Shown in pieces: positions 8,074 to 32,872 of a DNA stretch of 32,872 bases (positions are counted from its first letter, which is position 1; each line of letters opens with the position of its first letter). The notes beneath the pieces were generated by a model that made no database searches, was not told the DNA's origin, and was given only the letters and a program-made list of their open reading frames with translations. Location of the stretch: contig CAISEB010000011.1 in assembly GCA_903884235.1 (NCBI GenBank), positions 1-32,872 of the forward strand, given 5' to 3'. This DNA is from an uncultured Pseudomonadota bacterium. GTDB lineage: Bacteria > Pseudomonadota > Gammaproteobacteria > Steroidobacterales > Steroidobacteraceae. The position numbers and the translations under genes were made by a program.

Positions 8074-8327
8074 CCGCCCTGTCCCGCATGCGCGCACCGG
8101 ATTGATTTGAAAGGCAATCCGGCCGGCATCCGCCACCGGCTCCAGGCGCGCATCGGCGCCGGGGCAGGTTCCCCCGCGCCGCACCGATGGGAACGACGAG
8201 CGCGAGCGCCATCGCGGCGTGCACGCCGGGCGCGCCGATGGCCCTGCCGTTGCGCCACGGCCGCGGACCCGGCGGCTGCGGCACGTCGGGGGCCCATGCT
8301 AGGCTCGGAATTCAGGCTCAAATGCCG

Positions 8328-8332
8328 AGGAG
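8328..8332 (+). promoter_or_regulatory. Ribosome-binding site fixing the beta-propeller lipoprotein start
   Basis: aggag lies 5 nt before the ATG at 8338. It selects this start, which begins the lipoprotein signal peptide, over an earlier in-frame opening at 8107. Confidence 0.7.
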
Positions 8333-8337
8333 TTGCG

Positions 8338-10122
8338 ATGCGCAGTGCAGGGAAGCCGTGGAACCTGTTCCCCATTCTCGCGGTGCTCGCCGCGTGCGGC
8401 GGCGGTGGTGGCGGCGGCGGCGGATCGCCCCCACCCCCGGCGACGTACACCATCGGCGGGACCGTCTCCGGCCTCGCCGGCAGTGGCCTCGTGCTGCAGA
8501 ACAATGGCGCGAACGATCTGTCGATCAGCGCGAACGGCAGCTTCACGTTCACGACCGCAGTCGCCCCCGGGGGCGGCTACTCGGTGACGGTCGCGGCCAA
8601 CCCGTCGACGCCGACCCAGACCTGCATCGTCACCGCGGGGTCGGGGTCGGTCGGGAGTGCCAACGTCTCGAGCGTCGCGGTCGCCTGCACCACGAGCAGC
8701 TTCGTGGTCGGCGGCTCGGTGACCGGGCTGACCGGGTCGGGACTGCAGATCCGCAGTGCCGATGGCACGACGCTCACGGTCGGCAACGGCCCGTTCTCGT
8801 TCCCGACGCCTGCGCTGAGCGGTTCCGCCTATCACGCCGCGATCGTCACCCAGCCGTCCTCGCCCACGCAGTACTGCACCGCGAGTGGTGCCCACGGCGT
8901 CGTCGGCGCGAGCGACGTGTCGATGTCGATCACCTGCAACTCGGGGACGGCGCGCTACCTCTACGTGACGGACCTGTTCCACAACACCGTGTACGGGCTC
9001 GCGGTGGACGCGACCACCGGCGCGCTGGCGCCGATCATGGGATCGCCATTCGACACCGGCCAGGGTGCGCAGCCGAGCGTCATCACGCCCTCCGGCAGCT
9101 TCGTCTACGTGCTGAATGAGGGCGACGGCACGATCACGGGGTTCGCCGCCCACGCGGCGACCGGTGCGCTGACGCAGATCGGCGGATCGCCGTTCAGCGT
9201 CACCGGCACCGGCTTCTCGACGTTGCCGACGATGGTCATGGATCCCTCGGGACGCTTCCTGTACGTGCTGGTCGAGGGCACCGGGTCGATCGCGGGCTTC
9301 GCGATCGACCCGACGACCGGCGCGCTGACGCGCTTCATGGGCGCCGATTTCGCGGCGCCCGGGGTCGGCTGGGCCGGGTTCGATCCGCTCGACCGGTTCC
9401 TCTACTACACCGGCACGACACCGAGCGGTACCTATGTCGCGACCGCCCGCATCGACGCGCAGACCGGGGCGCTCGTTCAGGCCGGGACGCAGACGTTCAT
9501 CAGTGGCACGCTGCCGGTGAATCCGCCGCAGGCCGCCGTCAAGCCGTCCGGGAACTTCGTCTACGTGATGATCGGCGACCTCGTCTACCCCGTCTCCCTC
9601 GACCCGGCCACCGGGCAGCCGTCCCAGAGCGACGCGTCGGTGTCCGTCACTGGCGCGAACCACCTGAAGTTCGATCCGTCGGGCCGGTTCCTCTATGTGG
9701 ACAGCATCAACTTCGCGCTCGCCGGGTTCTCGATCGATGCCACGACCGGCGGTCTCACGCCGCTGCCGGGCTCGCCGTACGCGTCCGGCGCGAAGGACAC
9801 GCATGACTTCGATCTCGATCCGCAGGGACACTTCCTCTACCTGCCCGTGCTGGATAACTGGCTGAACGCCTACGCCATCGACGGCACCGCCGGCGCACTC
9901 GCGCCGCTCGGCGCGTCCCCGTACACGGTGGACGCGGCTCCGGCGCAGGTGCGCGTCGACCTGTCGGGGCGCTTCCTGTATCTCGCGAGCTCCGGGACGA
10001 GCACGGTCTCGAGCTTCAGCCTGGATCCCGTCACGGGCGCGGTGACGCTGATCGGGTCGGTGCCGGTGGGCGCGCCGACGAGCATCGCCGCCAGCAATTT
10101 CACGCTCGCCGGGACGCAGTAG
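8338..10122 (+). CDS. Lactonase-like / YVTN-type beta-propeller lipoprotein
   Basis: A 594-residue exported lipoprotein. The signal peptide ends in a lipobox, 'LAAC' (Cys at about residue 20), followed by a run of nine Gly and a Pro-rich linker. Residues of about 35-200 hold two beta-rich repeats ('GGTVSGLAGSGLVLQNNG' and 'GGSVTGLTGSGLQIRSADG'). The remainder is a beta-propeller of repeated blades such as 'RYLYVTDLFHNTVYGLAVD-x-TTGAL' and 'DPSGRFLYVL', typical of the 6-phosphogluconolactonase-like / YVTN families. These surface propellers are common in gamma- and betaproteobacteria and mostly lack an assigned function. No enzymatic role should be assumed. The gene stands alone, and the next gene converges on it. 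Confidence 0.85.
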   Translation: MRSAGKPWNLFPILAVLAACGGGGGGGGGSPPPPATYTIGGTVSGLAGSGLVLQNNGANDLSISANGSFTFTTAVAPGGGYSVTVAANPSTPTQTCIVTAGSGSVGSANVSSVAVACTTSSFVVGGSVTGLTGSGLQIRSADGTTLTVGNGPFSFPTPALSGSAYHAAIVTQPSSPTQYCTASGAHGVVGASDVSMSITCNSGTARYLYVTDLFHNTVYGLAVDATTGALAPIMGSPFDTGQGAQPSVITPSGSFVYVLNEGDGTITGFAAHAATGALTQIGGSPFSVTGTGFSTLPTMVMDPSGRFLYVLVEGTGSIAGFAIDPTTGALTRFMGADFAAPGVGWAGFDPLDRFLYYTGTTPSGTYVATARIDAQTGALVQAGTQTFISGTLPVNPPQAAVKPSGNFVYVMIGDLVYPVSLDPATGQPSQSDASVSVTGANHLKFDPSGRFLYVDSINFALAGFSIDATTGGLTPLPGSPYASGAKDTHDFDLDPQGHFLYLPVLDNWLNAYAIDGTAGALAPLGASPYTVDAAPAQVRVDLSGRFLYLASSGTSTVSSFSLDPVTGAVTLIGSVPVGAPTSIAASNFTLAGTQ

Positions 10123-13086: not shown

Positions 13087-14292
13087 TCACTCCGCCTCCA
13101 GCGCCAGGCGCTGGATCACGTTGTTGTGGTAGCCGGGGCCATTGAAGATCAGCTTGTCGACCTGCGTCGCGCCGACGCCGTTGCTCGCGCGCGCGGACAG
13201 CACGTGACCGCCGCGGGCCGGCGTGAACGAGTACGACCAGGGCCGGAAGGAGAACCGCCCGGCGTCGCTGCCGAGTTCCGCAGCCTGCCACGAGCGTCCG
13301 CCGTCGAGGGAGACATCGACCGAGCGGATGCCGAAGCCGCCATCCCAGGCGATGCCGGCGACCGTCGTCGGCGTGCCGGCGCGGATGTGCTGGCCCTCGA
13401 GGTGGGAGGTGATCAGCGAGTTCACGACCATTTCGGTGATCGGCGTCGTGTCCGCGTTCTCCTGGGTCGTGAAGCGGTCGACGACGGGGAACTTGCCCTT
13501 CGGGATGCGGTAGGCCTTCTGCATCCAGAAGCCCTCGAGCGGCTTGCGCAGCGCGCGGATCGAAACGACCTTCTTCATCCAGTAGGTCGCCGTCCAGCCC
13601 GGCACCACGATGCGGGCCGGCGCGCCGTTCAGGTGCGGCAGCGGTTCGCCGTTCATCTCGTAGGCGATGAGGGTGTTCTCGTCCAGCGCCTTCCACGCCG
13701 GGATGCTCTTGATGAAGTCCGGCGTCTTCTCGAGCGCGCCCTGGTCGGCACCGTCGAAGGCGACCTCGACCGCGTCGGCGGCGATGCCTGCCTTCGCGAG
13801 CACGTCCTTCAGGCGCACGCCCGCCCAGCGCGCATTGCCCATCGCGCCACTGCCCCACTGCACGCCCGCGACGTGCGGGTCCGACAGTCCCCGCCGGTTG
13901 CCGGCGCACTGGCAGACGGCCACGACCTCGACGCGCTCGAAGCCGTGCTTCAGATCCTCGAGCGACAGCTCGAGCGGGGTCGCCGCCGCGTCGCCGGCGA
14001 CCGAGAGCCGCCAGTCGCGCGGATCGATCTCCGGGATCGAGGCCAGGTGCCAGCGCACGAAGAAGCGGTCGTTGGGCGTCAGCAGCGAGGCGTACTCGCC
14101 AATCGGGGTTTCGTAATTGGGTGGCCGGAAGCTGCGCTTGATCAGCGGCCGCTTGCCCGGCAGCACGCCGAGCTCCTCGCCGGCGAGCGCGCCGGCGGGC
14201 AGGGCCGCGAAGGCGGCGCGCGGCAGCAGCAAGGGACCCGCCGCGAGCGCGGCGCCGCCGGCCATGCCACGTACGAACGAGCGTCGGTCCAT
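13087..14292 (-). CDS. sorA: Molybdopterin-dependent sulfite dehydrogenase, catalytic subunit
   Basis: A 401-residue periplasmic sulfite oxidase family enzyme that oxidises sulfite to sulfate at a molybdenum cofactor. The N-terminus has a Tat signal ('RRSFVRG' then a hydrophobic stretch, cut near 'AAFA', residue 29), as expected for export with the cofactor inserted. The Moco-binding Cys is Cys129 in 'CQCAGNRRG'. Further family features are 'FFVRWHLASIPEIDP', 'GVQWGSGAMGNARWAGV' and the C-terminal dimerisation-type Ig domain ('GIAWDGGFGIRSVDVSLDGGRSW'). With the cytochrome gene following it, this is a SorAB-type enzyme feeding electrons to the respiratory chain. It faces a divergent GNAT gene across 165 bp with no recognisable gene. 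Confidence 0.92.
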   Translation of the reverse strand: MDRRSFVRGMAGGAALAAGPLLLPRAAFAALPAGALAGEELGVLPGKRPLIKRSFRPPNYETPIGEYASLLTPNDRFFVRWHLASIPEIDPRDWRLSVAGDAAATPLELSLEDLKHGFERVEVVAVCQCAGNRRGLSDPHVAGVQWGSGAMGNARWAGVRLKDVLAKAGIAADAVEVAFDGADQGALEKTPDFIKSIPAWKALDENTLIAYEMNGEPLPHLNGAPARIVVPGWTATYWMKKVVSIRALRKPLEGFWMQKAYRIPKGKFPVVDRFTTQENADTTPITEMVVNSLITSHLEGQHIRAGTPTTVAGIAWDGGFGIRSVDVSLDGGRSWQAAELGSDAGRFSFRPWSYSFTPARGGHVLSARASNGVGATQVDKLIFNGPGYHNNVIQRLALEAE

Positions 14293-14922: not shown

Positions 14923-16395
14923 ATGACCGCCATGATCCCCGCACCCCGTGATGACATCCTCGCGGCGCTGCGCGCCTGCCTGCCGGGCGATGCGCTGCTC
15001 ACGGAACAGGCCGAGCTCGCCCCGTACGAATGCGACGGGCTGTCGGCCCTCGCGCGGCGACCGCTCGCGGTGGCGTTGCCGAAGACGGAGGCCGAGGTCG
15101 TGGCCGTGCTCGCGTGCTGCCGCCGATTCGACGTGCCGGTCGTCGCGCGCGGCGCCGGGACGGGGCTGTCCGGCGGTGCGCTACCCCATCCCGAGGGCGT
15201 CGTGCTGTCGCTCGCGCGGCTGAACCGGATCCTCGCGATCGACGCGGCCGCCGGCACCGCCCGCGTCGAGCCCGGCGTGCGCAACCTCGCGCTGTCGGAG
15301 GCCGCGGCGCCGCATGGCCTCTACTACGCGCCGGATCCGTCCTCGCAGATCGCCTGCACGATCGGCGGCAACGTCGCCGAGAACTCGGGCGGCGTGCACT
15401 GCCTGAAGTACGGCCTCACGCTGCACAACGTGGTCGGTGTGCGGGGCTACACGAGCGACGGCGACGAGCTCGTGCTCGGCGCGGGCGCCCCGGACGGTCC
15501 CGGGCTCGACCTGCTGCCGATCGTCATCGGCTCCGAGGGCATGCTGCTCGTCCTCGTCGAGGTCACGGTCCGGCTGCTGCCGCGACCGCCGCTCGCGCGG
15601 GTTGCCATGGCGTCGTTCCCCGACGTCGGCCGCGCCTGCGATGCGGTCGCGCAGATCATCGCCGCCGGCATCGTGCCAGCCGGCCTCGAGATGATGGATC
15701 GCGGCGCGGCCGCGGCCGTCGAGCCGTTCTGCGGGGCGGGCTACGACCTCGATGCGGCGGCGATCCTGCTGGTCGAATCCGACGGCACGCCCGCCGAGGT
15801 CGAGGACGAGATCGCGCGCGTCGGCGCGATCGTGCGCGCGGCCGGCGCATCCGCGGTCCGGGTATCGCGCGACGAGGCCGAGCGCATTCGGCTCTGGTCG
15901 GGCCGCAAGAACGCGTTCCCGGCGGCCGGGCGCATCTCGCCCGACTACTACTGCATGGACGGCACGATCCCGCGCAAGCACCTGGCGCGGATGCTCGATG
16001 CCATCGCGGCGATGGCAGGGCGATACGGTCTGCGCTGCATCAACGTGTTCCACGCCGGCGACGGCAACCTGCACCCGCTGATCCTGTTCGATGCCAACGC
16101 GCCGGGCGAGTGGCCCCGTGCCGAGGCGTTCGGGGCCGAGATCCTCGAGCTCTGCGTCGAGCTCGGCGGCACGATCACCGGCGAGCACGGCGTCGGCGAG
16201 GAAAAGCTCGGCTCGATGTGCGTGCAGTTCTCGCCCGCCGAGCGCGGTGTGTTCCTCGCGGTCAAGGCGGCGTTCGACCCGGCCGGCATCCTGAACCCCG
16301 GCAAGGTGATCCCGACGCTGCATCGCTGCGCGGAGTACGGGCGGATGCGCGTGCACCGCGGCGCCACGCCGTTCGCCCACCTCGAGCGGTTCTGA
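14923..16395 (+). CDS. glcD: Glycolate oxidase, FAD-linked subunit GlcD
   Basis: GlcD is the catalytic flavoprotein of the membrane-associated glycolate dehydrogenase, which oxidises glycolate to glyoxylate and passes electrons to quinone. The 490-residue protein has the PCMH-type FAD domain: 'VARGAGTGLSGGALP' (about 74-88) and 'PDPSSQIACTIGGNVAENSGGVHCLKYG' (about 138-165). The FAD-linked oxidase C-terminal domain contains 'INVFHAGDGNLHPLILFD' and 'GEHGVGEEK'. The length matches the family (about 500). glcE follows after 1 nt, so the three genes form a tight unit. In autotrophs this enzyme recycles glycolate from 2-phosphoglycolate, a Rubisco by-product; it can also serve growth on glycolate. 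Confidence 0.95.
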   Translation: MTAMIPAPRDDILAALRACLPGDALLTEQAELAPYECDGLSALARRPLAVALPKTEAEVVAVLACCRRFDVPVVARGAGTGLSGGALPHPEGVVLSLARLNRILAIDAAAGTARVEPGVRNLALSEAAAPHGLYYAPDPSSQIACTIGGNVAENSGGVHCLKYGLTLHNVVGVRGYTSDGDELVLGAGAPDGPGLDLLPIVIGSEGMLLVLVEVTVRLLPRPPLARVAMASFPDVGRACDAVAQIIAAGIVPAGLEMMDRGAAAAVEPFCGAGYDLDAAAILLVESDGTPAEVEDEIARVGAIVRAAGASAVRVSRDEAERIRLWSGRKNAFPAAGRISPDYYCMDGTIPRKHLARMLDAIAAMAGRYGLRCINVFHAGDGNLHPLILFDANAPGEWPRAEAFGAEILELCVELGGTITGEHGVGEEKLGSMCVQFSPAERGVFLAVKAAFDPAGILNPGKVIPTLHRCAEYGRMRVHRGATPFAHLERF

Positions 16396-16396
16396 G

Positions 16397-17458
16397 GTGG
16401 GCGACGACCTCCAGCGGATCATCGACGCCGTCCGCGAGGCCGCCGCGACCGGCGTGCCGCTCGCGATCCGTGGCGGCGGCACCAAGGACTTCCTCGGCGA
16501 GCGGATCATCGGCACGCCGCTCGAGATCGGCGGCCACGCGGGCATCGTCGACTACGACCCGAGCGAGCTCGTCGTCACGGCGCGCGCCGGCACGCCGCTC
16601 GCGGAACTCGAGGCGCTGCTCGCCTCCCGTGGCCAGATGCTGGCGTTCGAACCGCCGCACTTCGCGCCGGGCGGCACGGTGGGCGGCGCGGTCGCCGCCG
16701 GGCTCGCCGGTCCGCGGCGCGCGAGCGCGGGGGGCGTGCGCGACTTCGTGCTCGGCGCGTCGATCGTCTCCGGCGGCGGCGAGCTGCTGCGCTTCGGTGG
16801 CCGCGTGATGAAGAACGTGGCCGGCTACGACGTCTCGCGGCTGCTGTGTGGCTCGCTCGGCGTGCTCGGCCCGATCGTCGAGGTGTCGCTCAAGGTGTTG
16901 CCGAAGCCCGCGCTCGAACGCACGCTCGAGTACGAGCTCGATGCGCCGGCGGCGGTCGCCGCCTTCAATCGGGCGGCGCGCCAGCCACTGCCCGTGTCGG
17001 CGACGAGCTGGTGCGCGGGGCGGGCGCGCATCCGCCTGTCCGGGGCCCCTGCCGCGGTCGAGTCCGCGCGGCACGTGCTCGGGGGGCGCGAGGTCGAGTC
17101 GGGCGACGCCGCGGCCTGGTGGGAGGCGCTGCGCCATCACCGCGCGCCTCTCCTCGCCGCGCGCACGCCGCTGTGGCGGGTCGTCGTGCCGGCCACCGCG
17201 CCGCTGCTCCCGCTCGAGACCCCGGAGCTGGTCGAGTGGGCCGGTGCATTGCGATGGTGCCGGGCCGGGGAGGATGGCGCCGCGGTGCGCGCCCGCGCCC
17301 GCGCGGCGGGCGGCGCGGCTGCGCTGTGGCACGGCCCGGCAGGCAGCCGCATGTTCGACGACCTGCCGGCGGCGGCGCTCGCGATCCACCGACGCCTCAA
17401 GGCGAGCTTCGATCCGGCGGCGATCTTCAACCGCGGCCGCCTGGATCCGGGGCTCTGA
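16397..17458 (+). CDS. glcE: Glycolate oxidase, FAD-binding subunit GlcE
   Basis: A 353-residue second flavin subunit of glycolate oxidase. The FAD domain shows 'IRGGGTKDFLG' (about 23-33), 'LAFEPPHFAPGGTVGGAVAAGLAGPRR' (about 81-107) and 'GRVMKNVAGYDVSRLLCGSLGVLG' (about 135-158). The C-terminal 'RLKASFDPAAIFNRGRL' motif is typical of the family. The start is a GTG at 16397, one base after the glcD stop. An ATG start is not available nearby, and the N-terminal family sequence begins right after it. It is required with GlcD and GlcF for activity in E. coli. Confidence 0.94.
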   Translation: MGDDLQRIIDAVREAAATGVPLAIRGGGTKDFLGERIIGTPLEIGGHAGIVDYDPSELVVTARAGTPLAELEALLASRGQMLAFEPPHFAPGGTVGGAVAAGLAGPRRASAGGVRDFVLGASIVSGGGELLRFGGRVMKNVAGYDVSRLLCGSLGVLGPIVEVSLKVLPKPALERTLEYELDAPAAVAAFNRAARQPLPVSATSWCAGRARIRLSGAPAAVESARHVLGGREVESGDAAAWWEALRHHRAPLLAARTPLWRVVVPATAPLLPLETPELVEWAGALRWCRAGEDGAAVRARARAAGGAAALWHGPAGSRMFDDLPAAALAIHRRLKASFDPAAIFNRGRLDPGL

Positions 17459-22262: not shown

Positions 22263-25200
22263 ATGGACCCCAGAGCACCATCCGTGAACACACTTCGACC
22301 GAAGGGACGCCTCCAGTCCGCCTGCCTCGCGATGGCGGCCCTGCTGCTCGCAGCGGTGGGCCTGCTGGCGGCACCGGCGAGCCTCGCCAAGGCGGGGGGC
22401 TTCGACCACTTCACGACCGGGTTCGACCTCGTCGGCCAGCACCAGGACGTGCCGTGCGAGAGCTGCCATGTCGGCGGCATCTTCAAGGGGACGCCCACCG
22501 ACTGCTTCTCCTGCCACGCGGCCGGTTCCAGGATCGGCGCGTCTGCCAAGCCGACCAACCACATCCTGTCCTCGAACGACTGCGGCTCGTGCCATACGAC
22601 CTACGGCTGGCGCCCGGTCGCGATGTTCAACCACATCAACGTCCTCGGCACCTGCAGCAGCTGCCACAACGGCGTGCAGACGGTCGGCAAGGGTCCGACC
22701 CACATCGCGACCACGGCCGAGTGCAGCACCTGCCACCTGGTCACGCTGCCCTGGAAGTCCGCGCATTTCGACCACACCGGCATCACCGACAACTGCGTCC
22801 GCTGCCACGACAACACCCACGCGCCGGGCAAGCCGCCGAAGCACATCCCGGCCTCGAATCTCTGCGAGGGCTGCCATCTCTGGCAGCAGCCGATTGCGCT
22901 GAACTACACGACGTTCGTGGTTCCGAACGACAAGATGAATCACAGCGGCATCACGAACAACTGCCAGGCCTGCCACGAGACCGGCATGGCGTGGGACTAC
23001 GTGAAGGTCATGGTCGACCGGCCGACGCCGGCGCAGGACCCGAACCACCCGCTCGCGACGGCGCCGGGCGGCGCGGACTGTTCGAGCTGCCATTCCGGCT
23101 TCGGCATCGGCGACTTCAACAAGGCCAACAAGCCCGCGAACCACATCCCGACGAAGCCCGGCGCGCTGTGCGTGGCCTGCCACGACCTCTCGAACATGGC
23201 GAAGCTGGGCACGTTAGGCGCGATCCACTCGAACGCGCCGAGCTCGACGACGAACTGCACGGACTGCCACCTGCCGGAGCCGACGACGAAGTTCGACCTG
23301 CCGGCGATCAACTTCCACGTCCTCGGCGTGCCCGTCGGCCACGTCCCGATCAAGGCCTCCTGCGAGGCCTGCCACCTGGGCTCGAGCTTCCCGGCAGTGC
23401 CGGTGCAGGACGGCGCCAAGTTCACGAACTCGAAGTTCGCGCACCTGGGCTACACCGCCGACAGCTGCGCCCAGTGCCACGGCCCGAATTCGACCGCGAT
23501 CAGCCCGTTCATCGGCGTGCCGAGCATCGTGACGATGCCGCCGAGCGGCTCGCAGCCGGGCGGCCCGACGCTGCACCTGCCTTCGACGACCACCTGCGGG
23601 AACTGCCATGCCGCGCCGACCGGCCTGATCGCCCCCTCGGCCTCGGGCACGGTGCCGGGTGGAACGCTGTTCGGGCCGTCGATGCTGCCGGGCAGCGCCG
23701 CCATCCACAGCGACCTCGCGAAGACGACCACCTGCAAGAGCTGCCACGAGCGGGATTCGAACTGGCTGGGCATGACCAGCTACCCGGCCACGCCGAACAA
23801 GTTCGTCATCACCACCCAGTATTCCGGCTTCGTGACCCGGCCGTACGGCTCGCCGTCGCCGTTCTCGATCGTCGACGCCGCGCATCCGACCGATGGCGAC
23901 TGCGGCCAGTGCCACACCGAGGCGCTCTCGTTCAAGTACTTCGACAGCGCGGTGAAGCCGACCAATCACATCCCGTACTCGAGCACGGCGACCTGTTCGA
24001 ACTGCCACATCATCGGCGACTTCTCGACCATCCCGTCGGTGACGAACATCCATTCGTACCTGCAGAATCCGACGACGAACTGCGCGCAGTGCCATGAGAA
24101 GGGCAACGCGGCCAGCTTTGCCATCCCGGCGGCGCATTTCTATATCACCTCGACGGCGACCGACAAGACCGGCGCGGGCCTGCCGGCGACCCACCTGCCG
24201 ACGACCCAGTCGTGCGAGATCTGCCATCTGGCGGCGGGCGCCGGCCTCGCGCTGCCGATCGGCGATACTTCGACGTTCGCCAAGTCCATGATGAACCACC
24301 AGGGTTCGACGACCTGCAACGGCTGCCACGAGCAGGTGGACAAGGGGATCACGACGTTCCTCGGCATCTCGCAGATCGTCCGCATGCCGACGACGTCCCC
24401 GGGCGCGAGCTCGCACATCCCGACCCCCGTTGCGGCCTCCTGCGAGGTCTGCCACCTGTCGAGCATGCCGGCCACCGTCATCGGGCCGAATTCAACCCAG
24501 GTGCAGCCGCCCGGGACCCAGTTCATGCCGACGCTGTCGCTGAAGACCGCGACGATCCACACGAACATCGCCAAGGGATGCCAGGCCTGCCACGAGAGCA
24601 CCGACCAGTGGCTGGACATGAGCCTGTACCCGATCAGCCCGACGGCCGCCTCGTCCGACCCCACCGTGAAGTACACGGGCTTCCAGCTGCGCCCGGGCGC
24701 GGCGGCCGGGACCTACACGATCCTCGACGCGCTGCACCCGAAGGCGGGCGATCCGGGTGGTGCCGACTGCGAGTCGTGCCACGGCACGAACTTCGACGCG
24801 TGGACCGGGCAGGTGAAGCCGGCGAACCACATCCCGTATGTGTCCGGCACGGCCTGCACGTCCTGCCACACGACGACCGACTTCTCGGCATCGCCGACGG
24901 TCACGAACATCCACAAGTACGCGCAGAGCACGACGACCAACTGCGCGCAGTGCCACGACAAGACCAACGCCGCGTACTACGCGATCCCGGCGGCGAAGTT
25001 CGCGATCACCTCGACGGCGAGCGTCGTCTCGACCGGTGCGACGGTCGTGCACATGCCGGTCACGCAGAGCTGCGAGGTCTGCCACGTCGGTGCGGGCTCG
25101 AGCGTCACCGTGACCCCGGTTGCGACCGGCGCGGCGTTCGCCAAGTCCCTGATGAACCACCAGGGCGTGACCACCTGCGCGGAGTGCCACGCGCCGCCGG

Positions 25201-27773
25201 TCACTGCGACGACGTTCTCCGGGATCACCAAGCTCGTCGTGATGCCGCCAACGTCGCCGGCGGCCAGCACCTCGCACATCCCGACCAGCACCAGCTGCGA
25301 GTCCTGCCACCTCTCCTCGATGCCGTCCGGCCTGATCGCGGCCAACGCGACGACGCTGACGCTCGGCGGCACGAAGTTCCTGACGCCCGCGCCGAAGACG
25401 GACGCGATTCACTCGGGGATCTCGGCGAATTGCCAGAACTGCCATGAAGGCGGCTACGTCTGGGCGGGCATGACGCAATACCAGATCGCGCCGACCCAGC
25501 TCAGCGCGGTCACGACCACGCAGTACACCGGCTTCCAGACGCGGCCGAGCACGACGACTTCCAGCACGTACATGCTGAAGGACGCGAATCACCCGACCGC
25601 GGCCCAGGGCGCGGACTGCGTGACCTGCCACACGACCAACTTCAATTACTTCGCGGGCTCCGTGAAGCCGGCCAATCACATCCCGTACGTATCGACCGCG
25701 CTGTGCACGGACTGCCACACGAACATCTCCGACTTCTCGGTGGCGCCGACGCTGACGAACATCCACAAGTTCGCGCCGAGCACGACCTCGAACTGCATCC
25801 AGTGCCACGGCGCGTCGCAGTCCCTGGCCCTGGACCTGACGGCAAATCCGACGTACCACATCACCTCGACCACGCGGGACAAGACCGGCATCGCGTTCAC
25901 GCCGACCCACATGCCAACTGCACAGTCCTGCGAGGTGTGCCATGTCGGCGCGGGCACGAGCGTCGCGACGACGCCGGTCGTGGACGGCGCGTCCTTCGCC
26001 AACTCGACGATGAACCACACCGGCACGGCGACCGGATGCGCGGGCTGCCACACCGTGAACGGCGCGGTCGCGACGAAGTTCCTCGGCGTGACGAACATGG
26101 TCGGCGAGCCGCCGACCACCGGCCCTGGCGCGGGCAACCACCTGCCCACGGTGGTGTCGACCTGCGAGACATGCCACCTGGCGAACGTGCCGTCGGGCGC
26201 CATCGCGCCGAACTCGACCACGCCGGCGCCCGGCTCGAAGTTCAAGCTGCCCTTCCCGCAGCCCGCCGCGATCCACACCGGCGTGACCGAGACGACCGGC
26301 TGCGGGCAGTGCCATGAAGCCAATCAGGCGTTCATGAGCATCGACGTGTATCCGATCCAGCCGTCCAGCACGACCGGCGGCACGTCCTCGACGCTGTACA
26401 CGGGCTTCCAGCAGCGGCCGGGGGCCACCGTCGGCACGTACGTCATCCTCGACGCGCTGCATCCGCTGAAGGCGGCCGGCGACTGCTGGGCCTGCCACGG
26501 CATGGACTTCACCACGGGGTTCATCGCCTCCGGCAAGCCGAGCAACCACTATCCGACGACCCCCACGGCGCCGTGCGCGGACTGCCACGTGGCGGGCAAC
26601 TACGCCGACTACTCGAAGATGAACACGGCGAATCCGACCGTGTTGACCGCAATGCACAACGATTGGCTGACGCCGACCGCCTGCAGCTCCTGCCACGCCG
26701 ACACGACGGCCACCTATGCCGCGGCGTCGGGCTTCGCGATCATGCGCATGGACGGGGCGACGCCGAACGCCTGGATTCACATCCCGATCACGAACGCAGG
26801 CACGCCGGTTGAATGCTCCGGCTGCCACAAGAGCACGACCGCGTTCTCCGGCACGGTCATGAGCCACACCGCGATCGGCGATTTCGGATCGATGACGAGC
26901 GGCTCGAAGAACTTCACGGCGGTCGCGACCGGCAATGCCTGCGACGCCTGCCACGAAGTCGGCATGAAGTCGCTGTTCAAGGGCGTCACGGTCAATTTCA
27001 CGCGCGACAAGAAGAGCGCAACCCACGAGCTGTGCGGTTCACCCGGCACGTACAAGGCCCCGAACGTGACGAACTGCGGGTCGAGCGGCGGCTCGGACTG
27101 CCTGATGGGCTGCCACCAGCACACCAGCATCTCGGCCACCTACAAGCGCGTGCCGCGCAAGGTCGTGCCCGTGGCCCGCCCGACCGCACCGCCGGCGCCG
27201 ATGCGCGGCGGACGGCCGGCGACGCTGCTGACCGCGACCGGCGCGTTCGACCACTCGGCGGCGGTGGGCGAGACCTGCCAGAGCTGCCATGTCGGTGGCT
27301 TCATCGCCGGCAAGGGACCGGGCCATCCGAAGACGACCGACGCCTGCGCGGACTGCCACTCGACGACCGCGTGGATCCCCGTGGCTCGGCTCGACCATGC
27401 TGACGTGCTCGATCGCTGCGTGACCTGCCACAACGGCAAGGCCGCGACGGGCAAGTCGCCGGGACACATCCTGTCCGACACCGGCTGCGAGCGTTGCCAC
27501 ACGACGAGCGCCTGGAAGCCGGCGACGGTCGACCACTCGGCGCTGCTCGCCGCCAACTGCATCAGCTGTCACAATGGCCTGAAGGCCGTCGGCAAGCCGA
27601 CGCGACACGTGTTGACCACCGAATCGTGCGAGACCTGCCACTACGTACTCAGCTGGACGCCGGTGAAGCCGGTGGCGCCGAAGCTGCACCGACTCATGCC
27701 GCCGGCGCGCAAACCCGCGGTGCCGCCGCGCGGTCGGCTGACCGGCGGATCGACGCCCCCGTCCGAGCAATAG
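22263..27773 (+). CDS. Giant secreted multihaem cytochrome c (47 CXXCH motifs)
   Basis: A 1836-residue protein with a signal peptide (about 1-43, hydrophobic core 'AMAALLLAAVGLLAAPASLA'). I count 47 CXXCH motifs, from Cys65 to Cys1789, plus one CX3CH at Cys1613. Residues of about 46-205 and 1655-1800 contain a repeat of the form 'C-x-x-CHNG-x-x-x-x-GK-x-P-x-H-I ... C-x-x-CH-x-x-x-x-W-x-P'. The middle (about 273-1407) is four tandem seven-haem units, then a shortened fifth with five CXXCH and the CX3CH. Histidines between motifs, as in 'NHIP', 'MNHQG' and 'IH', could give bis-His ligation. Such proteins carry electrons along closely packed haems outside the cytoplasm. Linkers are rich in Thr, Ser and Pro, as in exposed proteins. 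The next gene encodes an outer-membrane barrel. Its location (periplasm, barrel lumen or cell surface) is not known. Confidence 0.93.
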   Translation: MDPRAPSVNTLRPKGRLQSACLAMAALLLAAVGLLAAPASLAKAGGFDHFTTGFDLVGQHQDVPCESCHVGGIFKGTPTDCFSCHAAGSRIGASAKPTNHILSSNDCGSCHTTYGWRPVAMFNHINVLGTCSSCHNGVQTVGKGPTHIATTAECSTCHLVTLPWKSAHFDHTGITDNCVRCHDNTHAPGKPPKHIPASNLCEGCHLWQQPIALNYTTFVVPNDKMNHSGITNNCQACHETGMAWDYVKVMVDRPTPAQDPNHPLATAPGGADCSSCHSGFGIGDFNKANKPANHIPTKPGALCVACHDLSNMAKLGTLGAIHSNAPSSTTNCTDCHLPEPTTKFDLPAINFHVLGVPVGHVPIKASCEACHLGSSFPAVPVQDGAKFTNSKFAHLGYTADSCAQCHGPNSTAISPFIGVPSIVTMPPSGSQPGGPTLHLPSTTTCGNCHAAPTGLIAPSASGTVPGGTLFGPSMLPGSAAIHSDLAKTTTCKSCHERDSNWLGMTSYPATPNKFVITTQYSGFVTRPYGSPSPFSIVDAAHPTDGDCGQCHTEALSFKYFDSAVKPTNHIPYSSTATCSNCHIIGDFSTIPSVTNIHSYLQNPTTNCAQCHEKGNAASFAIPAAHFYITSTATDKTGAGLPATHLPTTQSCEICHLAAGAGLALPIGDTSTFAKSMMNHQGSTTCNGCHEQVDKGITTFLGISQIVRMPTTSPGASSHIPTPVAASCEVCHLSSMPATVIGPNSTQVQPPGTQFMPTLSLKTATIHTNIAKGCQACHESTDQWLDMSLYPISPTAASSDPTVKYTGFQLRPGAAAGTYTILDALHPKAGDPGGADCESCHGTNFDAWTGQVKPANHIPYVSGTACTSCHTTTDFSASPTVTNIHKYAQSTTTNCAQCHDKTNAAYYAIPAAKFAITSTASVVSTGATVVHMPVTQSCEVCHVGAGSSVTVTPVATGAAFAKSLMNHQGVTTCAECHAPPVTATTFSGITKLVVMPPTSPAASTSHIPTSTSCESCHLSSMPSGLIAANATTLTLGGTKFLTPAPKTDAIHSGISANCQNCHEGGYVWAGMTQYQIAPTQLSAVTTTQYTGFQTRPSTTTSSTYMLKDANHPTAAQGADCVTCHTTNFNYFAGSVKPANHIPYVSTALCTDCHTNISDFSVAPTLTNIHKFAPSTTSNCIQCHGASQSLALDLTANPTYHITSTTRDKTGIAFTPTHMPTAQSCEVCHVGAGTSVATTPVVDGASFANSTMNHTGTATGCAGCHTVNGAVATKFLGVTNMVGEPPTTGPGAGNHLPTVVSTCETCHLANVPSGAIAPNSTTPAPGSKFKLPFPQPAAIHTGVTETTGCGQCHEANQAFMSIDVYPIQPSSTTGGTSSTLYTGFQQRPGATVGTYVILDALHPLKAAGDCWACHGMDFTTGFIASGKPSNHYPTTPTAPCADCHVAGNYADYSKMNTANPTVLTAMHNDWLTPTACSSCHADTTATYAAASGFAIMRMDGATPNAWIHIPITNAGTPVECSGCHKSTTAFSGTVMSHTAIGDFGSMTSGSKNFTAVATGNACDACHEVGMKSLFKGVTVNFTRDKKSATHELCGSPGTYKAPNVTNCGSSGGSDCLMGCHQHTSISATYKRVPRKVVPVARPTAPPAPMRGGRPATLLTATGAFDHSAAVGETCQSCHVGGFIAGKGPGHPKTTDACADCHSTTAWIPVARLDHADVLDRCVTCHNGKAATGKSPGHILSDTGCERCHTTSAWKPATVDHSALLAANCISCHNGLKAVGKPTRHVLTTESCETCHYVLSWTPVKPVAPKLHRLMPPARKPAVPPRGRLTGGSTPPSEQ
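23079..26483 (+). repeat. Four tandem seven-haem coding units
   Basis: Measured from the first Cys of each unit, the units begin at 23079, 23901, 24768 and 25617, and a fifth, shortened one begins at 26484. Unit lengths are 274, 289, 283 and 289 residues. Each carries seven CXXCH in the same order, with shared landmarks: 'KP-x-NHIP' after the first, 'NCAQCH' or similar at the third, 'QSCE-x-CH' at the fourth, 'HIP-x-x-x-x-C' before the sixth, and 'Y-x-GF-x-x-RP' near the end. Units two to four are closest to each other, and short DNA stretches such as aactgcgcgcagtgcca (24077 and 24939) are identical. They arose by duplication inside the gene. Confidence 0.88.
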
Positions 27774-27787
27774 TGGGGGCGTTCGAC

Positions 27788-29959
27788 GTGGCGGCCATCA
27801 ACTCACGGCGGGCGCAGCTCCGCTCCTCGGCGCGGCTGCGGGTCGCCGTCGGCGCGGCGCTCCTCGGCGTCGCGATCGCGACGCCCGCCGAGGCTGACGA
27901 TCGGGCGCTGGAACAGGTCACGATCGAGTCCTCGACGATCGTGGTGCAGTTCAGCTGCCCGATGAGCTACGTCTCGAACTATCCGCTGCGCACCGGTGAC
28001 GAGCTGCGCATCGAACTGCAGCCGCTGCCGGGGTGCAGGCCGCAGTCGGGCATCGGCGAGACCCTGCCGGTGCCGGCCGACAACTCGGCCGGGCTCGTGG
28101 AGCTGCGGATCGACCAGTCGCTCGGGTCGCGCCGCTCGCTGACGCTGCACTTCTCGCGCACCGTCGACTTCCTGATCCGGCCGCGCTCGGGCCTGACCGG
28201 CATCGAGATCGCGCTGACCATGCGCGCCGGCCGCGTCAAGGTCGAATCCGCCGAGGCGCCGCCGCGACCCTCGCGCAATTCGACGCGCGAGCTGCCGCCG
28301 AAGGAAGAGCTCGACGAGATCCTGGCCAATGCCCGCACGGCGATGCAGGACCGGGACTACGACACCGCCATCCGCCTGTACACGAAGCTGCTCGAGTACC
28401 CCGAGCACGCAGCCCGCTCCCAGGCGCAGGAGTACGTCGGCCTCGCGCACGAGCGCAAGGGCGACATGGCGCTGGCCAAGGCCGAATACGAGGAATACCT
28501 CAGGCGCTACCCGGACGGCTCCGACATCGAATCGGTCCGCCAGCGCCTGGCCGCGATCGTGACCCTCGATGGCGCATCGCGGCCCTCGCGCGGCGCCGTC
28601 GACTCGAGCCCGTGGTCGATCACCGGCGGCATCGCCCAGGACATCCGCCACGACAACAACACGGTCACCGCCAACGGCATCACCTCGAACGGCGTCGGCC
28701 AGTCGGCGATCGACTCCGAGGCCGACGTGCAGGTCAAGCACCGCGGCGAGATCTACGACTTCAAGGCCAGGATGTTCGCCGGCTACATCCACGACATGCT
28801 GAGCGGCACCGGCGCCACCGCCAACCAGGTGCGCCTGCCCCAGGCGTTCGTGGAACTCGACAACAAGGCCTCGAACTGGCTCGGCCGCGTCGGTCGCCAG
28901 TCGCAGAGCACGGGCGGCTCCTACGGCAACTTCGACGGCGGGTACTTCAGCTGGCAGATGCGGCCGGGCCTGCGCCTCGGCGTGGCCGCCGGATCGCCGG
29001 TGCAGACCTACGACGCGAGCGTCAGCCACGACCGGACGTTCGGCAACGTCAGCCTCGAGGCCATGGGCGTGCTGCCCGGCCTCGACGTGACCGGCTATGT
29101 CTTCAACCAGCAGACCGCCGGCGTGCTCGATTCGAGGCAGCTCGGCCTCGAGACGCGCTACTACCGCAACGGTCGGTCCGTCTCGACCCAGCTGGACTAC
29201 GACCTGAGCTTCAAGGAGTTGAACTCGGTGACGCTGCTCGGCAGCTGGTCGCTCGAGAGCCGCTGGGTGCTCACCGCGCTCCTCGACCATCGCCATGCGC
29301 CGTTCTACTCGGTCTACAGCGCGCTGATCGGCCAGCCGACCACGGACATCAAGGAACTCATCTCGACCCTGGGCATCGACCAGGTGCGCCAGCTGGCCCG
29401 CGATCGCAGCGCGCTCAGCGACATGGTGACCTTCGGCGTGCAGCGCCCGATCGGCGAGCAGATCCAGTGGGGCGCGGACCTGTACATGAGTCGCGTGGGC
29501 GGCACCCCTGCGTCGGGCGGGGTGGCGGCGACCCCGGCGACGGGCACGGCGGTGGGGTTCTCGACCCAGCTGACCGGCGGAGGGTGGCTGGTCGATGGCG
29601 ACGTCGACACGGTCGGCGTCAGCTATACGACCCGGCAGGGGACGCGCTCGATCAGCACCTATTTCAGCTCCCGCTACCCGGTCGGGCCGTCCCTGCGGAT
29701 CGGCCCACGCCTGCAGGTCAGCCACAATTCCGGATCGGATCCGGCCACCGGGACGAGTTCGGGGTGGTCGTTGAGCCCGTCGCTGCTCGCGGACTGGCGC
29801 CTGAAGCACGGCTCCGTGCAGTTCCAGGCCGGCTACGAGCACGCGACCCTCGACTCGAGCTTCGCGCAGGGCGTCCCCATCGATCCGACGCTGCCGCCCA
29901 CCACCGACCAGCGCACCAGTCGCTACTGGGTCGGTCTCGGTTACAACCTGAGCTTCTGA
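27788..29959 (+). CDS. Outer-membrane beta-barrel protein with N-terminal beta domain and TPR-like segment
   Basis: A 723-residue exported protein. A signal peptide (about 1-36, ending 'ATPAEA') is followed by a beta-rich domain resembling AMIN ('QVTIESSTIVVQFSCP' to 'GLTGIEIALTMRAGRVKVE', about 40-155). Next come TPR-like helices ('LANARTAMQDRDYDTAIRLYTKLLEYPEHAARSQAQEYVGLAHERKGDMALAKAEYEEYLRRYP', about 180-243). From about 275 on there are alternating amphipathic strands, and the chain ends 'YWVGLGYNLSF', the C-terminal Phe signature of barrels inserted by BamA. It starts 14 nt after the cytochrome stop. A GTG at 27788 with ggggg 8 nt before is preferred; a GTG at 27773 overlapping the stop is the alternative. 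It may hold or export the giant cytochrome, as MtrB or PioB do for theirs, but similarity to those was not seen. Confidence 0.85.
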   Translation: MAAINSRRAQLRSSARLRVAVGAALLGVAIATPAEADDRALEQVTIESSTIVVQFSCPMSYVSNYPLRTGDELRIELQPLPGCRPQSGIGETLPVPADNSAGLVELRIDQSLGSRRSLTLHFSRTVDFLIRPRSGLTGIEIALTMRAGRVKVESAEAPPRPSRNSTRELPPKEELDEILANARTAMQDRDYDTAIRLYTKLLEYPEHAARSQAQEYVGLAHERKGDMALAKAEYEEYLRRYPDGSDIESVRQRLAAIVTLDGASRPSRGAVDSSPWSITGGIAQDIRHDNNTVTANGITSNGVGQSAIDSEADVQVKHRGEIYDFKARMFAGYIHDMLSGTGATANQVRLPQAFVELDNKASNWLGRVGRQSQSTGGSYGNFDGGYFSWQMRPGLRLGVAAGSPVQTYDASVSHDRTFGNVSLEAMGVLPGLDVTGYVFNQQTAGVLDSRQLGLETRYYRNGRSVSTQLDYDLSFKELNSVTLLGSWSLESRWVLTALLDHRHAPFYSVYSALIGQPTTDIKELISTLGIDQVRQLARDRSALSDMVTFGVQRPIGEQIQWGADLYMSRVGGTPASGGVAATPATGTAVGFSTQLTGGGWLVDGDVDTVGVSYTTRQGTRSISTYFSSRYPVGPSLRIGPRLQVSHNSGSDPATGTSSGWSLSPSLLADWRLKHGSVQFQAGYEHATLDSSFAQGVPIDPTLPPTTDQRTSRYWVGLGYNLSF

Positions 29960-30016: not shown

Positions 30017-31576
30017 CTAGCGCCGGACTCCGGCGCCCTTCCAGGTGATCGCCGTGTGGCAGCGGGCGCAGTCGCGCCCGAACCGGCCGCGATGGGCGTC
30101 ATCGCGCGCGTGGCATTCGCCACATTCCTTCGAGATCTTGACCTCGTCCGGCGGCTTCACGTGGCAGGCCTCGCACGCGATCTTGGCGTGCGCGCCCTCG
30201 AGCGCGAATTTGGTCGCCTTGCCGTGGTCGAACTGCCAGAACTTCCAGCCGTTCGGGTTGTGGCAGGTGGCGCAGGCCTTGCCGAAGCGGCCCTTGTGGA
30301 CGTCGTCGGCCTTGTGGCAGGAGACGCACTCGCGCGAGGTATTGCGGTAGGCCCCGTTGGCGTGGCACTCCTCGCAGGCGACGGTGCCGTGCAGCCCGAC
30401 CAGCGGGAAGCGCGTCATGTCGTGGTCGAAGCGCACCTTGTCCTTCCAGCCGGACTCCGTGTGGCACGACGCGCACTGCGTGCCCATCGAGCCGCGGTGG
30501 ACGTCGTCGGCCTTGTGGCAGCCGCCGCAGTCCTTCGGCAGCTTGGTGGGGCCGCCGACCGCGATCGTGTGGCAGGCGTGGCAGTCGAGCTTGGCGTGCT
30601 TGCCCTTCAGCGCGAACTTGGCCTTGAGCTCGTGGTCGTACTTCGCTTCCTTCCACTTCTGCTCGTTGTGGCAGGAGGCGCAGTCGTCACCGAAGCGCCC
30701 GCCGTGGCGGTCGTCGGCGGCGTGGCAGCCGGCGCACTTGTCCGGGATCTTCTGCTTCATGTCACCGGAGCGGTGGCATGACTCGCAGGCGACCTTGGCG
30801 TGGGCGCCGTTCAGGGCGAACTTGCCGACCTTCTCGTGATCGAAGTTCGCCTGCTTCCACTTCTCGGTGTTGTGGCAGCTGCCGCACAGCGGGCCGCGGC
30901 CACCCTTGTGCGAGTCGTCGCGGGCGTGGCACGCGACGCACTCCATCGGGGTGTTCTTGTAGGACGGGTCGCGATGGCAGTCGGCGCAGGCCGCGCGGCT
31001 GTGCGCGCCCTTCAGCGCGAAGTGCGTCTTCGAGTGATCGAACTGGGTCGACTTGGTCCAGCTCGTGGTGTTGTGGCAGTTGCCGCACTCCTTGCCGAGC
31101 TTGCCCTTGTGCGAGTCATTCTTCTCGTGGCAGCCGAAGCAGGTCAGCGGCGCGACGCGGAACTTCTTGCCCTTGGCGTGGCAGGACTCGCAGGCGGCCG
31201 TCGTGTGGTGGCCATCCAGCTTGAAGCCGGTGATGGAGTGGTCGAAGGACTCCCTGTCGAAGCGCACGATGTCCGCGCCACGGCCCTTGTGCTCGTTGTG
31301 GCAGGTCGTGCAGGCGGCGCCGGGCTTCAGCGCATGGCCGTGGAAGCCGCGCTTGTCACGCAGGTCGGTGCCGATGTCCTTGTGGCAATCGACGCACAGG
31401 CTCGTCTGCCTGTTCTGGTCGCTGCGGTCGTGGCACTTGGTGCACTCGACCTCGTACTTGGCGTGGGCCTGGGTGACCTCGCCGGGCATCAGCAGCTTCT
31501 CGAGCTGGCCCGCAGACGCGCCCGCGCTCCAGCTGCCGACCAGGGCGACCAGGATTGCCGAGATCCAGTAGCGCAT
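30017..31576 (-). CDS. Periplasmic 21-haem cytochrome c
   Basis: A 519-residue secreted protein with a signal peptide (1-22, ending 'AGASA'). I count 21 CXXCH motifs (Cys45 to Cys503), arranged as seven groups of three. From the second group on the unit is 'FDH-x-x-x-x-F-x-L-x-G-x-H-x-x-x-x-C-x-x-CH ... C-x-x-CH-x-x-DD-x-HKG-x-x-G-x-x-C-x-x-CHN-x-x-x-W', with a period of about 68 residues. The many conserved His outside CXXCH (FDH, GAH, HKG) are likely sixth ligands. It is Lys- and His-rich, unlike the Thr/Ser-rich giant cytochrome, and resembles c3/c7-type multihaem electron carriers. Its ATG overlaps the stop of the cytochrome b gene by one base (TGATG). It probably receives electrons from, or gives them to, that membrane subunit. 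Confidence 0.92.
   Translation of the reverse strand: MRYWISAILVALVGSWSAGASAGQLEKLLMPGEVTQAHAKYEVECTKCHDRSDQNRQTSLCVDCHKDIGTDLRDKRGFHGHALKPGAACTTCHNEHKGRGADIVRFDRESFDHSITGFKLDGHHTTAACESCHAKGKKFRVAPLTCFGCHEKNDSHKGKLGKECGNCHNTTSWTKSTQFDHSKTHFALKGAHSRAACADCHRDPSYKNTPMECVACHARDDSHKGGRGPLCGSCHNTEKWKQANFDHEKVGKFALNGAHAKVACESCHRSGDMKQKIPDKCAGCHAADDRHGGRFGDDCASCHNEQKWKEAKYDHELKAKFALKGKHAKLDCHACHTIAVGGPTKLPKDCGGCHKADDVHRGSMGTQCASCHTESGWKDKVRFDHDMTRFPLVGLHGTVACEECHANGAYRNTSRECVSCHKADDVHKGRFGKACATCHNPNGWKFWQFDHGKATKFALEGAHAKIACEACHVKPPDEVKISKECGECHARDDAHRGRFGRDCARCHTAITWKGAGVRR
30050..31249 (-). repeat. Six tandem three-haem coding units
   Basis: The first haem Cys of successive units are residues 129, 197, 264, 332, 401 and 468, spacings of 67-69 residues. 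Each unit carries three CXXCH and the landmarks FDH/YDH, G-x-H, D-D-x-H-x-G and CHN/CHT. A looser seventh group (Cys45, 61, 89) precedes them. The regular period suggests a linear stack of identical three-haem modules. Confidence 0.88.
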
Positions 31577-32451
31577 CAGTAGATATTGACCGCGATGACG
31601 TGGACGATGCCCGCGACGAACAGCATACCGAACATGGGCAGGTGGAGGATATGCCACAGCGAGAACAGGCGCTCGCAGCTGTGGAACTCCGCCACCCGGC
31701 GGGCGGCCCCGAGCCGGGCGTCCGAGTAGCGGACCGCGGCCGCCAGCAGCGTGGCGCGGTGCTCGGAAATCGCGAGCGAGTTCGCGGCGGCCTGCTTCAG
31801 CGTGCGCTTGATGAACAGGCGCATCTGCACGCGCCCGATCCACCACATCGTGTACGACGAGGACGCCTTCGGGATCAGCGGGATGTCCATCGAGATCCGG
31901 CCCTCGGCGGCATCGAGCTTCGGTGCGAAGCCGGGCAGCAGGCGCCCGGCGCCGCTGCCGTCGATCTTCAGGTTGTTGGCCTGGCGGCGCAGGTCGTCCG
32001 CGGTCGCCTTGCTGCCGTACAGGCCGTTGTGGATCCGGCTATAGAGGTAGCGCCCGACGATGCCGCTGCCGGCGACGATGATCATCGACCACAGCGCGAC
32101 GTTGCTGTTGGTCGCGCCGGTCCTGTAGGTGCAGTGATAGAGGATGAACAGGGGCCCCGCGACGCCGAGCACCATGTGGAAGCGGAACCACATCAGCGGC
32201 GAGCCGATGACGGCGAGCGACTGGATGCGCTTGCGCGCCGGGTAGATCAGCAGCGCCAGCATCAGCGAACCGCCGATGATGCCGAACCAGTAGCCCACGC
32301 CCGAGCGCGGCGTGATGTAGTCGCGCAGCGGCACGACCCAGCCGATCGCGAGGACCGCGGCGGCGATCAGGAGCCCGACCAGGGCACTGCTGACCTTGGG
32401 TTGGGCGGCGGCGCCCACGCCGGCCGGGGAAGCGTCCGTTGCTGCATTCAT
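31576..32451 (-). CDS. Inner-membrane cytochrome b-type subunit
   Basis: A 291-residue membrane protein with about five hydrophobic segments (about 22-40, 53-70, 86-108, 118-137 and 268-290). Histidines in or near them, His92 and His106 ('FRFHMVLGVAGPLFILYHC') and His267, His270 and His284 ('LWHILHLPMFGMLFVAGIVH'), are suited to bind two b haems. A hydrophilic stretch (about 140-255) lies between segments four and five. It overlaps the TPR gene upstream (ATGA, 32448-32451) and the 21-haem gene downstream (TGATG), so the three products are made together. By analogy with Cbc-type complexes of Geobacter it would link the quinone pool to the multihaem cytochrome. Family membership below 'cytochrome b' was not settled. 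Confidence 0.8.
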   Translation of the reverse strand: MNAATDASPAGVGAAAQPKVSSALVGLLIAAAVLAIGWVVPLRDYITPRSGVGYWFGIIGGSLMLALLIYPARKRIQSLAVIGSPLMWFRFHMVLGVAGPLFILYHCTYRTGATNSNVALWSMIIVAGSGIVGRYLYSRIHNGLYGSKATADDLRRQANNLKIDGSGAGRLLPGFAPKLDAAEGRISMDIPLIPKASSSYTMWWIGRVQMRLFIKRTLKQAAANSLAISEHRATLLAAAVRYSDARLGAARRVAEFHSCERLFSLWHILHLPMFGMLFVAGIVHVIAVNIY

Positions 32452-32872
32452 CGTCCTGCTCCTTGCTGAGCGGCCAGATTCCGGGATTCCTCAAGGTTCG
32501 CGCGCACGATCTGCGCGTCGTTCGAGGCCGGGTCGAGCTGGCCGAGCAAACGTTGCCATAAATCCGCTGCGCTGGAATAGCGCTGTTCCTGCAGTTCCAG
32601 GCTGGCCTTGAGCCAGAGGGACTTCGGATGCCTGGGGTCGATCTGCAGCGCCCGGTCGATCGCCTGGACGCCCGCCTTCAGGTCGCCGCCCGCGGCGGCC
32701 GCGCTGGAATCGCCGAGGTCGGCCCAGGCATCGGCGTCGAACGGCGCCATCCGCGTGATCTTCGCGTAGATTTCTTTCGCTTCCGCGAAGCGCTTGTTAC
32801 GGCGCAGTTCCTCGGCCTCGTGGCGCAGGCCGTCGACGACACCGCCGGCGGCCGGGGCGGGGGCGGCCGGCG
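32448..32872 (-). CDS. TPR-repeat protein, CcmI/NrfG-like (partial, N-terminus outside window)
   Basis: The C-terminal 140 residues of a protein that continues past the window edge. TPR motifs are visible: 'ELRRNKRFAEAKEIYAKITRMAPFDADAWADLGD', 'GVQAIDRALQIDPRHPKSLWLKASLELQEQRYSSAADLWQRLL', ending 'VRANLEESRNLAAQQGAGR'. This layout is like the TPR part of CcmI or NrfG, which present apocytochrome c to the haem ligation machinery. A dedicated chaperone beside a 21-haem cytochrome gene would make sense. A general TPR scaffold protein cannot be excluded without the missing N-terminus. The stop overlaps the cytochrome b start. Confidence 0.75.
   Translation of the reverse strand, partial: PAAPAPAAGGVVDGLRHEAEELRRNKRFAEAKEIYAKITRMAPFDADAWADLGDSSAAAAGGDLKAGVQAIDRALQIDPRHPKSLWLKASLELQEQRYSSAADLWQRLLGQLDPASNDAQIVRANLEESRNLAAQQGAGR

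Follow-up and report, generated by a model that had tools for sequence, protein, structure and literature searches.

Long chains of haem are found outside the cell in the OmcS, OmcE and OmcZ filaments of Geobacter, which are polymers of small subunits. Published cytochromes reach 112 motifs in Paludibaculum (PMC11495043) and 86 in both D. acetexigens (PMC12133095) and ANME-2c (PMC9012536), and Borg cytochromes carry up to 33 classical motifs (PMC11208441); a figure of 113 for Borgs or Methanoperedens found no confirmation in the literature searched. The conduit PCC3 is described as a porin, an outer MHC, a periplasmic MHC and an IMP of ~300 aa that has five transmembrane helices, SGXXG and two WX3HX13H motifs, and the IMP is proposed to hold two b haems (PMC5566968). 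The outer MHC of PCC3 carries a median of 34 motifs, reaching 85 in Agromonas, and the median for the periplasmic MHC is 21 (He et al. 2017, PMC5566968). One proteome table of S. lithotrophicus ES-1 gives 0 in 8/8 columns for Slit_1448, the outer cytochrome of its PCC3, although the adjoining porin, Slit_1449, was detected (PMC12016527). Here we describe a locus with a 47-motif cytochrome gene and compare it with these systems.

A 47-motif cytochrome gene and its neighbours

The window, that is, the whole stretch of DNA analysed, comprises 32,872 nucleotides of contig CAISEB010000011.1 (assembly GCA_903884235.1) from an uncultured member of the Steroidobacteraceae. On its forward strand (22263–27773), the gene MHC_e encodes, from an ATG start and free of internal stops, a protein of 1836 aa with 47 CXXCH motifs and one CX3CH; a motif scan of the 1836 aa found no CX4CH or CXXCK. 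By comparison, 1000 shuffled versions of the protein had 0.3 CXXCH on average and never more than 3, and the G+C content by codon position (0.53/0.57/0.93) is that of coding DNA. The precursor has a calculated mass of 190 kDa without haem and matches Pfam Cytochrome_C7 (3.2e-57) as well as MtrC/MtrF domain II/IV. By eye, residues 1–44 (22263–22394, +) form a Sec-type signal peptide, in which basic residues are followed by ACLAMAALLLAAVGLLAA and then by ...SLAKA; the cleavage site was placed in the same way. These data confirm what the earlier note had reported, namely 47 CXXCH motifs in a single 1836-codon frame with a signal peptide. A promoter scan limited to the sigma-70 type gave 0 sites (0.5 expected), and a terminator scan gave one, within the cytochrome gene (3.8 expected).

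The MHC_e stop overlaps by one base the GTG at 27773 that opens the next gene (27773–29959, +; alternative start GTG 27788). We predict a barrel-type fold for the product of this gene: its mature part, as modelled, combines a small beta domain and TPR helices with 22 long strands (residues 241–687; AF2, pLDDT 83.1, pTM 0.71). All 50 of the Foldseek matches listed for the model were outer-membrane barrels, at low TM-scores of 0.14–0.33 on the query. The opposite strand carries MHC_p (30017–31576, −), a periplasmic-type cytochrome (P0002) of 519 aa from ATG 31576 with 21 CXXCH; IMP (31576–32451, −), which overlaps the MHC_p start by one base and encodes 291 aa with WX3HX13H at 88 and 266 and SGXXG at 129; and a TPR protein fragment (32448–32870, −), which overlaps the IMP start by four bases and runs off the window. 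Two WX3HX13H motifs and SGXXG recur in 56 of 57 distinct IMP homologues.

A cluster of ~10 kb thus holds all four PCC3 part types: a predicted barrel, a presumed outer cytochrome (MHC_e, 47 CXXCH), a 21-motif cytochrome (MHC_p) and an IMP with the described motifs and size. Judged by gene content, motifs and published descriptions, the locus is most likely a PCC3. The suggestion of a single-gene system made from the cytochrome gene was not borne out, since MHC_e belongs to a cluster whose gene content matches that of a published conduit. Nor is a count of 47 exceptional against a usual 4 to 12 haems, as had been supposed: in published descriptions, PCC3 outer cytochromes have a median of 34 and reach 85 (PMC5566968), and 112 motifs occur elsewhere (PMC11495043), which also led us to reject a record motif count for MHC_e.

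Elsewhere, the window opens within a 23S rRNA gene, after which comes 5S rRNA (positions 1–493). The product of 8107–10122 has a lipoprotein-like signal, a glycine run (CGGGGGGGGGS) and, by eye, beta-propeller-like repeats; a SorA-like sulfite dehydrogenase (13087–14292, −) scores 434 bits, below the NCBIfam cut-off of 600; and two adjacent FAD-binding oxidase genes (14923–17458; Pfam) resemble glycolate oxidase subunits. The genome also contains CcmF and, about 9 kb from it, a RuBisCO large-subunit match (4.5e-132; G000:C24:21387-22304). A link between PCC3 and CO2 fixation was considered and rejected: RuBisCO occurs in 17 of the 57 family genomes that match IMP strongly (E below 1e-20) and in 32 of the 93 without such a match, by a hand count over 150 family genomes that places 12 weak-IMP genomes among those without and assumes that both listings cover identical genomes.

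Seven-haem cassettes in MHC_e

The spacing of the CXXCH motifs divides MHC_e into an N-cap, four seven-haem cassettes, a partial fifth, a CX3CH stretch, a Pro-rich linker and a C-cap, all on the + strand. The N-cap (22401–23012) holds haems 1–8 with the spacing 16 26 24 23 24 23 33. The four full cassettes, each of 274–289 aa (~280 aa), span residues 262–1396: m0 (residues 262–535; 23046–23867), m1 (536–824; 23868–24734), m2 (825–1107; 24735–25583) and m3 (1108–1396; 25584–26450). A partial last cassette (residues 1397–1580; 26451–27002) has five CXXCH, at 1408, 1438, 1474, 1518 and 1560. It is followed by a Cys-rich stretch (27015–27128) with the CX3CH (C1613) and two further Cys (C1591, C1605), by the Pro-rich linker (27129–27242), the length of which varies among relatives, and by the C-cap (27243–27662) of six haems at 23/24 spacing. 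Eleven other same-genus frames cover that region, and 10 of them keep the Cys-rich CX3CH stretch; the exception, L034, has CX4CH and lacks the extra Cys pair.

Non-motif histidines were surveyed in 71 cassettes from 16 loci. The cassettes were chosen by CXXCH spacing; this choice partly fixes the number of CXXCH at seven but leaves the His count free. In 71/71 cassettes six non-motif His are invariant, with seven such His in 53 cassettes and eight in 18. In a two-cassette alignment, 50/50 rows keep the seventh (H290) in their second cassette. Conserved non-motif His thus make two His ligands possible for all seven cassette haems, as expected of an electron-transfer chain: every cassette haem has a conserved candidate second His. 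The proposal of a secreted-type cytochrome with 47 motifs per chain is supported. By their CXXCH spacing strings, the arrays of nine complete same-genus genes contain no skipped motif.

The same nine genes show how the array varies. A search of 98 genomes, the window's own and 97 relatives, gave matches in 37, own included, and the complete same-genus MHC_e genes, the window's among them, carry 38, 43, 45, 47, 54, 54, 54, 96 and 106 motifs. These counts equal a cap sum plus a multiple of seven: 19+28=47, 19+35=54 (three genes) and 19+77=96; 15+28=43 and 15+91=106; 17+21=38 and 17+28=45. The cassette numbers are 3, 4, 5, 11 and 13. The cap sums (15, 17 and 19) were read off the data, so support comes only from the agreement inside each cap class (47/54/96; 43/106; 38/45). 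From the motif arithmetic, the MHC_e proteins of close relatives appear to differ in length by whole seven-haem blocks.

Assembly collapse or false duplication is unlikely, because the four full window cassettes are only 63–70% identical in DNA (differing at 30–37%). In the cassette tree, which is rough in detail, with unsettled bootstrap and long branches for the window cassettes, the window's m0 falls in one clade with the m0 cassettes of six relatives' genes, and those of the remaining genes (such as L020 and L025–L028) are placed elsewhere. Later cassettes of several genes, including the window's m1–m3, cluster by gene, and those of three related species are orthologous position by position. 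The window cassettes have branches of 0.53–0.9, against a median end branch of 0.11.

Throughout, pN is lower than pS (174/174 cassette pairs). Median dN/dS is 0.06 for the orthologous cassettes of the three species (15 pairs; dS computable in 13), 0.21–0.58 between cassettes within the genes of five relatives and 0.83 between the cassettes of the window gene (6 pairs), values that a strong third-position G+C bias should inflate by making dS too low. The value of 0.83 and the long branches point to constraint outside the haem ligands that is weak or diversifying in the window's species; these ligands apart, evolution seems indeed to be faster in the window gene than in the genes of its relatives.

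Built from ten same-genus N-caps, a profile matched MtrC at residues ~172–292 (4.9e-7), a match that the CXXCH motifs may partly drive. The cassette profile, run against the PDB at E <= 1, matched 3oue only (0.087), and no match to MtrC or to a filament cytochrome was obtained; the whole of MHC_e had no PDB match at E 0.001. Two cassettes modelled together with AF2 (572 aa; alignment of 50 rows) gave a mean pLDDT of 56.7 and a pTM of 0.36, and the model was discarded. Membership was rejected for three families with curated cut-offs: OmcA/MtrC (TIGR03507; 75.3 bits, cut-off 209.3), DmsE (TIGR03508; 51.8 bits, cut-off 192.2) and the HmcA hexadecahaem family (NF045713; 24.7 bits, cut-off 400).

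A near-constant motif number in MHC_p beside a variable MHC_e

For a wider survey, genome contigs were scanned with an N-cap profile, and the best 80 of 291 confirmed stretches were analysed. N-cap spacing is the best-conserved part of MHC_e in these 80: the first four CXXCH gaps are 16 26 24 23 at 73 loci, an agreement inflated by the search, which found the loci by N-cap patterns. Centres are of several types, namely a simple repeat at 23/24 spacing, the seven-haem unit found in the window's genus and, in other lineages, units of about four, five or seven haems, as assigned by an automatic period finder that is crude and leaves some rows ambiguous.

Among the same best 80 of 291 stretches, 49 MHC_e genes are complete, with 7–78 motifs. 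Exactly one CX3CH occurs in 35 of these 49, same-genus genes included; at L036–L038 it sits close to the C-terminus. Complete MHC_p genes have 21 motifs in 53 cases, 24 in three and 12 in one, a count that leaves out the 21-motif MHC_p of L075 for its odd first gap. At the 41 loci where both genes are complete, MHC_e ranges from 7 to 60 motifs, while MHC_p has 21 at 38 loci, 24 at two and 21 plus a second gene of 12 at one. Two periplasmic-type cytochromes, of 21 and 12 motifs, adjoin a 49-motif MHC_e at L116:6676-9845. Counted as motifs, the periplasmic partner nearly always has 21 putative haem sites while the outer protein varies.

The largest MHC_e genes

Distinct complete MHC_e genes number 52, or 53 with the window's. 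The four largest have 106 (L020:4503-16772, genome G010), 96 (L021:5017-15915), 78 (L052:5724-13301) and 74 CXXCH (L038:4414-11676), and homologues of the barrel, MHC_p and IMP are absent from their fetched flanks of 2.7–5.7 kb per side. A barrel gene adjoins 48 of the 53, window included, all with <=60 motifs; MHC_p lies in the same fetched stretch for 44 and IMP for 42, short flanks included. One further MHC_e (29 motifs) could not be judged for the barrel, its downstream flank being only 74 bases. Some of the 48 barrel-linked genes have no MHC_p or IMP in the fetched stretch, L025 among them despite flanks of 3.9 and 5.7 kb. As the barrel was sought with the window protein as query, a very different barrel could escape. 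Moreover, the four giants stem from two lineages and are not four independent cases, and the 85-motif protein of a published PCC3 (PMC5566968) indicates that large size need not imply separation from the conduit.

Ten frames adjoining the 96- and 106-motif genes, some of them probably not genes, were searched with Pfam. Near the 96-motif gene are a HAD hydrolase, AAA and metallopeptidase/VWA proteins and, upstream, an F420-hydrogenase/dehydrogenase-beta-like gene; the 106-motif gene has a GspL-like gene (type II secretion) at a distance of ~1.2 kb on its downstream side. Three genomes, SZAS-85 (L064), GL140_3_metabat_371 (L058) and GL140_1_metabinner_2 (L079), have a second, separate MHC_e locus; L058 and L079 are conduit-linked, and L064 is cut by a contig end.

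Discussion

We consider it probable, at about 75%, that MHC_e is the extracellular subunit of a PCC3 and that its cassette array serves as a surface antenna or wire of adjustable length, altered in whole seven-haem units while the inner arm stays fixed at 21. The CcmF of the genome is in keeping with this reading. Two observations tell against it: the 0 for the outer cytochrome Slit_1448 in the S. lithotrophicus ES-1 proteome table (PMC12016527), and the high dN/dS and long branches of the window's own cassettes. If the motifs are loaded with haem, electrons would travel between the quinone pool and the exterior through IMP with two b haems, the 21-haem MHC_p, the barrel and the 47-haem outer chain, the last presumably at the cell surface. 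As to a possible direction of flow, the RuBisCO in the genome would fit electron uptake, but by the hand count RuBisCO and PCC3 show no association in the family. The best-conserved spacing of the N-cap and its profile match to MtrC suggest that this cap is placed at the barrel. A partial unit would put the haems out of register, which may be why length changes by whole units, and whole units would equally be expected from unequal recombination between repeats; what keeps the periplasmic arm at 21 haems may be a need to match the width of the periplasm. Known haem filaments have about 0.7–0.85 nm per haem. Fully extended in single file, the 47-haem chain would measure 33–40 nm and a 106-haem chain 75–90 nm.

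The array might instead be compact and act as a capacitor, an electron store that holds charge when the outside partner is intermittent. Storage has been suggested for large cytochromes (PMC10734462, PMC11495043), and a freely varying copy number suits storage capacity as well as length. We regard this as unlikely, though the least so of the alternatives, as the fixed haem order of each cassette and the conserved caps suit a directed path; a wire would store charge too. Less likely still is a stand-alone covalent nanowire, the one-chain counterpart of OmcS and OmcZ filaments that the earlier note suggested and that the dense tandem array of haem sites brings to mind, working independently of the neighbouring genes. 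The four relatives with 74–106 motifs do lie apart from conduit genes, but the window copy is conduit-linked, with the barrel gene overlapping by one base and MHC_p and IMP convergent alongside, as are most distinct complete MHC_e genes (barrel 48/53, MHC_p 44, IMP 42), and the cassettes lack a PDB match to a filament cytochrome.

That the extra cassettes are functionless products of neutral repeat expansion seems very improbable. Clustering by gene of the cassettes of several genes and the high dN/dS of 0.83 within the window gene are what such expansion would leave behind. Against it, candidate second His ligands are kept in 71/71 cassettes while other positions drift, the arrays of nine complete same-genus genes skip no motif, pN stays below pS in 174/174 pairs, and the cassettes of three species are orthologous by position at a dN/dS of 0.06.

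A further, tentative proposal, which we hold to be doubtful as it stands, is that PCC3 outer cytochromes are wires which lineages lengthen by whole cassettes (of seven haems in the window's genus) between conserved caps, with the periplasmic arm locked at 21, and that some lineages may have released a copy that grew into a giant (74, 78, 96 or 106 motifs), a separate covalent nanowire possibly plugged onto the conduit through the shared N-cap. If this is true, the cell gains a separate covalent nanowire of defined length. The window gene itself adds one member to PCC3. The complete same-genus genes form a natural length series of 3, 4, 5, 11 and 13 cassettes; their caps are similar, and intact clusters add a constant 21-motif partner. 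Through its cassette numbers, such a series allows a direct test of what very long haem chains are good for (reach, storage or speed), and it could serve as a ready-made ruler when single-molecule conductance is measured.

Comparison with known systems

MHC_e reads as a well-preserved outer cytochrome of PCC3 whose cassette design is unusually regular. The PCC3 kind and motif counts above 47 were already known; what seems new, and most worth following, is the arithmetic of the cassettes, the near-constant inner arm and the giants without conduit genes. The literature searched, as far as it was available, described neither seven-haem cassettes nor giants free of a conduit, which does not prove that no such description exists. 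With PCC3 (PMC5566968; Gallionellaceae, PMC10734462) the locus shares the barrel, the outer MHC, the 21-motif MHC and the IMP motifs, and MHC_e shares a repeat-rich sequence high in T, S, A and G and a low ratio of amino acids per haem (22–39 published, 39.1 here). It differs in gene order, as the barrel and MHC_e genes are convergent with MHC_p and IMP, unlike in the available descriptions of PCC3. Where these describe repeats, it is only as having at least one haem site each (PMC5566968, PMC10734462); the centre of MHC_e consists of ~280-aa seven-haem cassettes, in contrast to the 23/24-spaced repeat of many other surveyed loci.

Shewanella MtrC, in MtrCAB, is likewise an outer cytochrome on a barrel conduit, and the N-cap profile and Pfam MtrC/MtrF domain II/IV matches point the same way, but MtrC has 10 haems against 47 motifs in MHC_e. 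The Paludibaculum, D. acetexigens, ANME-2c and Agromonas giants, compared by count only, resemble MHC_e in their very high motif number per chain. The Geobacter filaments of OmcS, OmcE and OmcZ are polymers, whereas in MHC_e the repeat is covalent, inside one chain.
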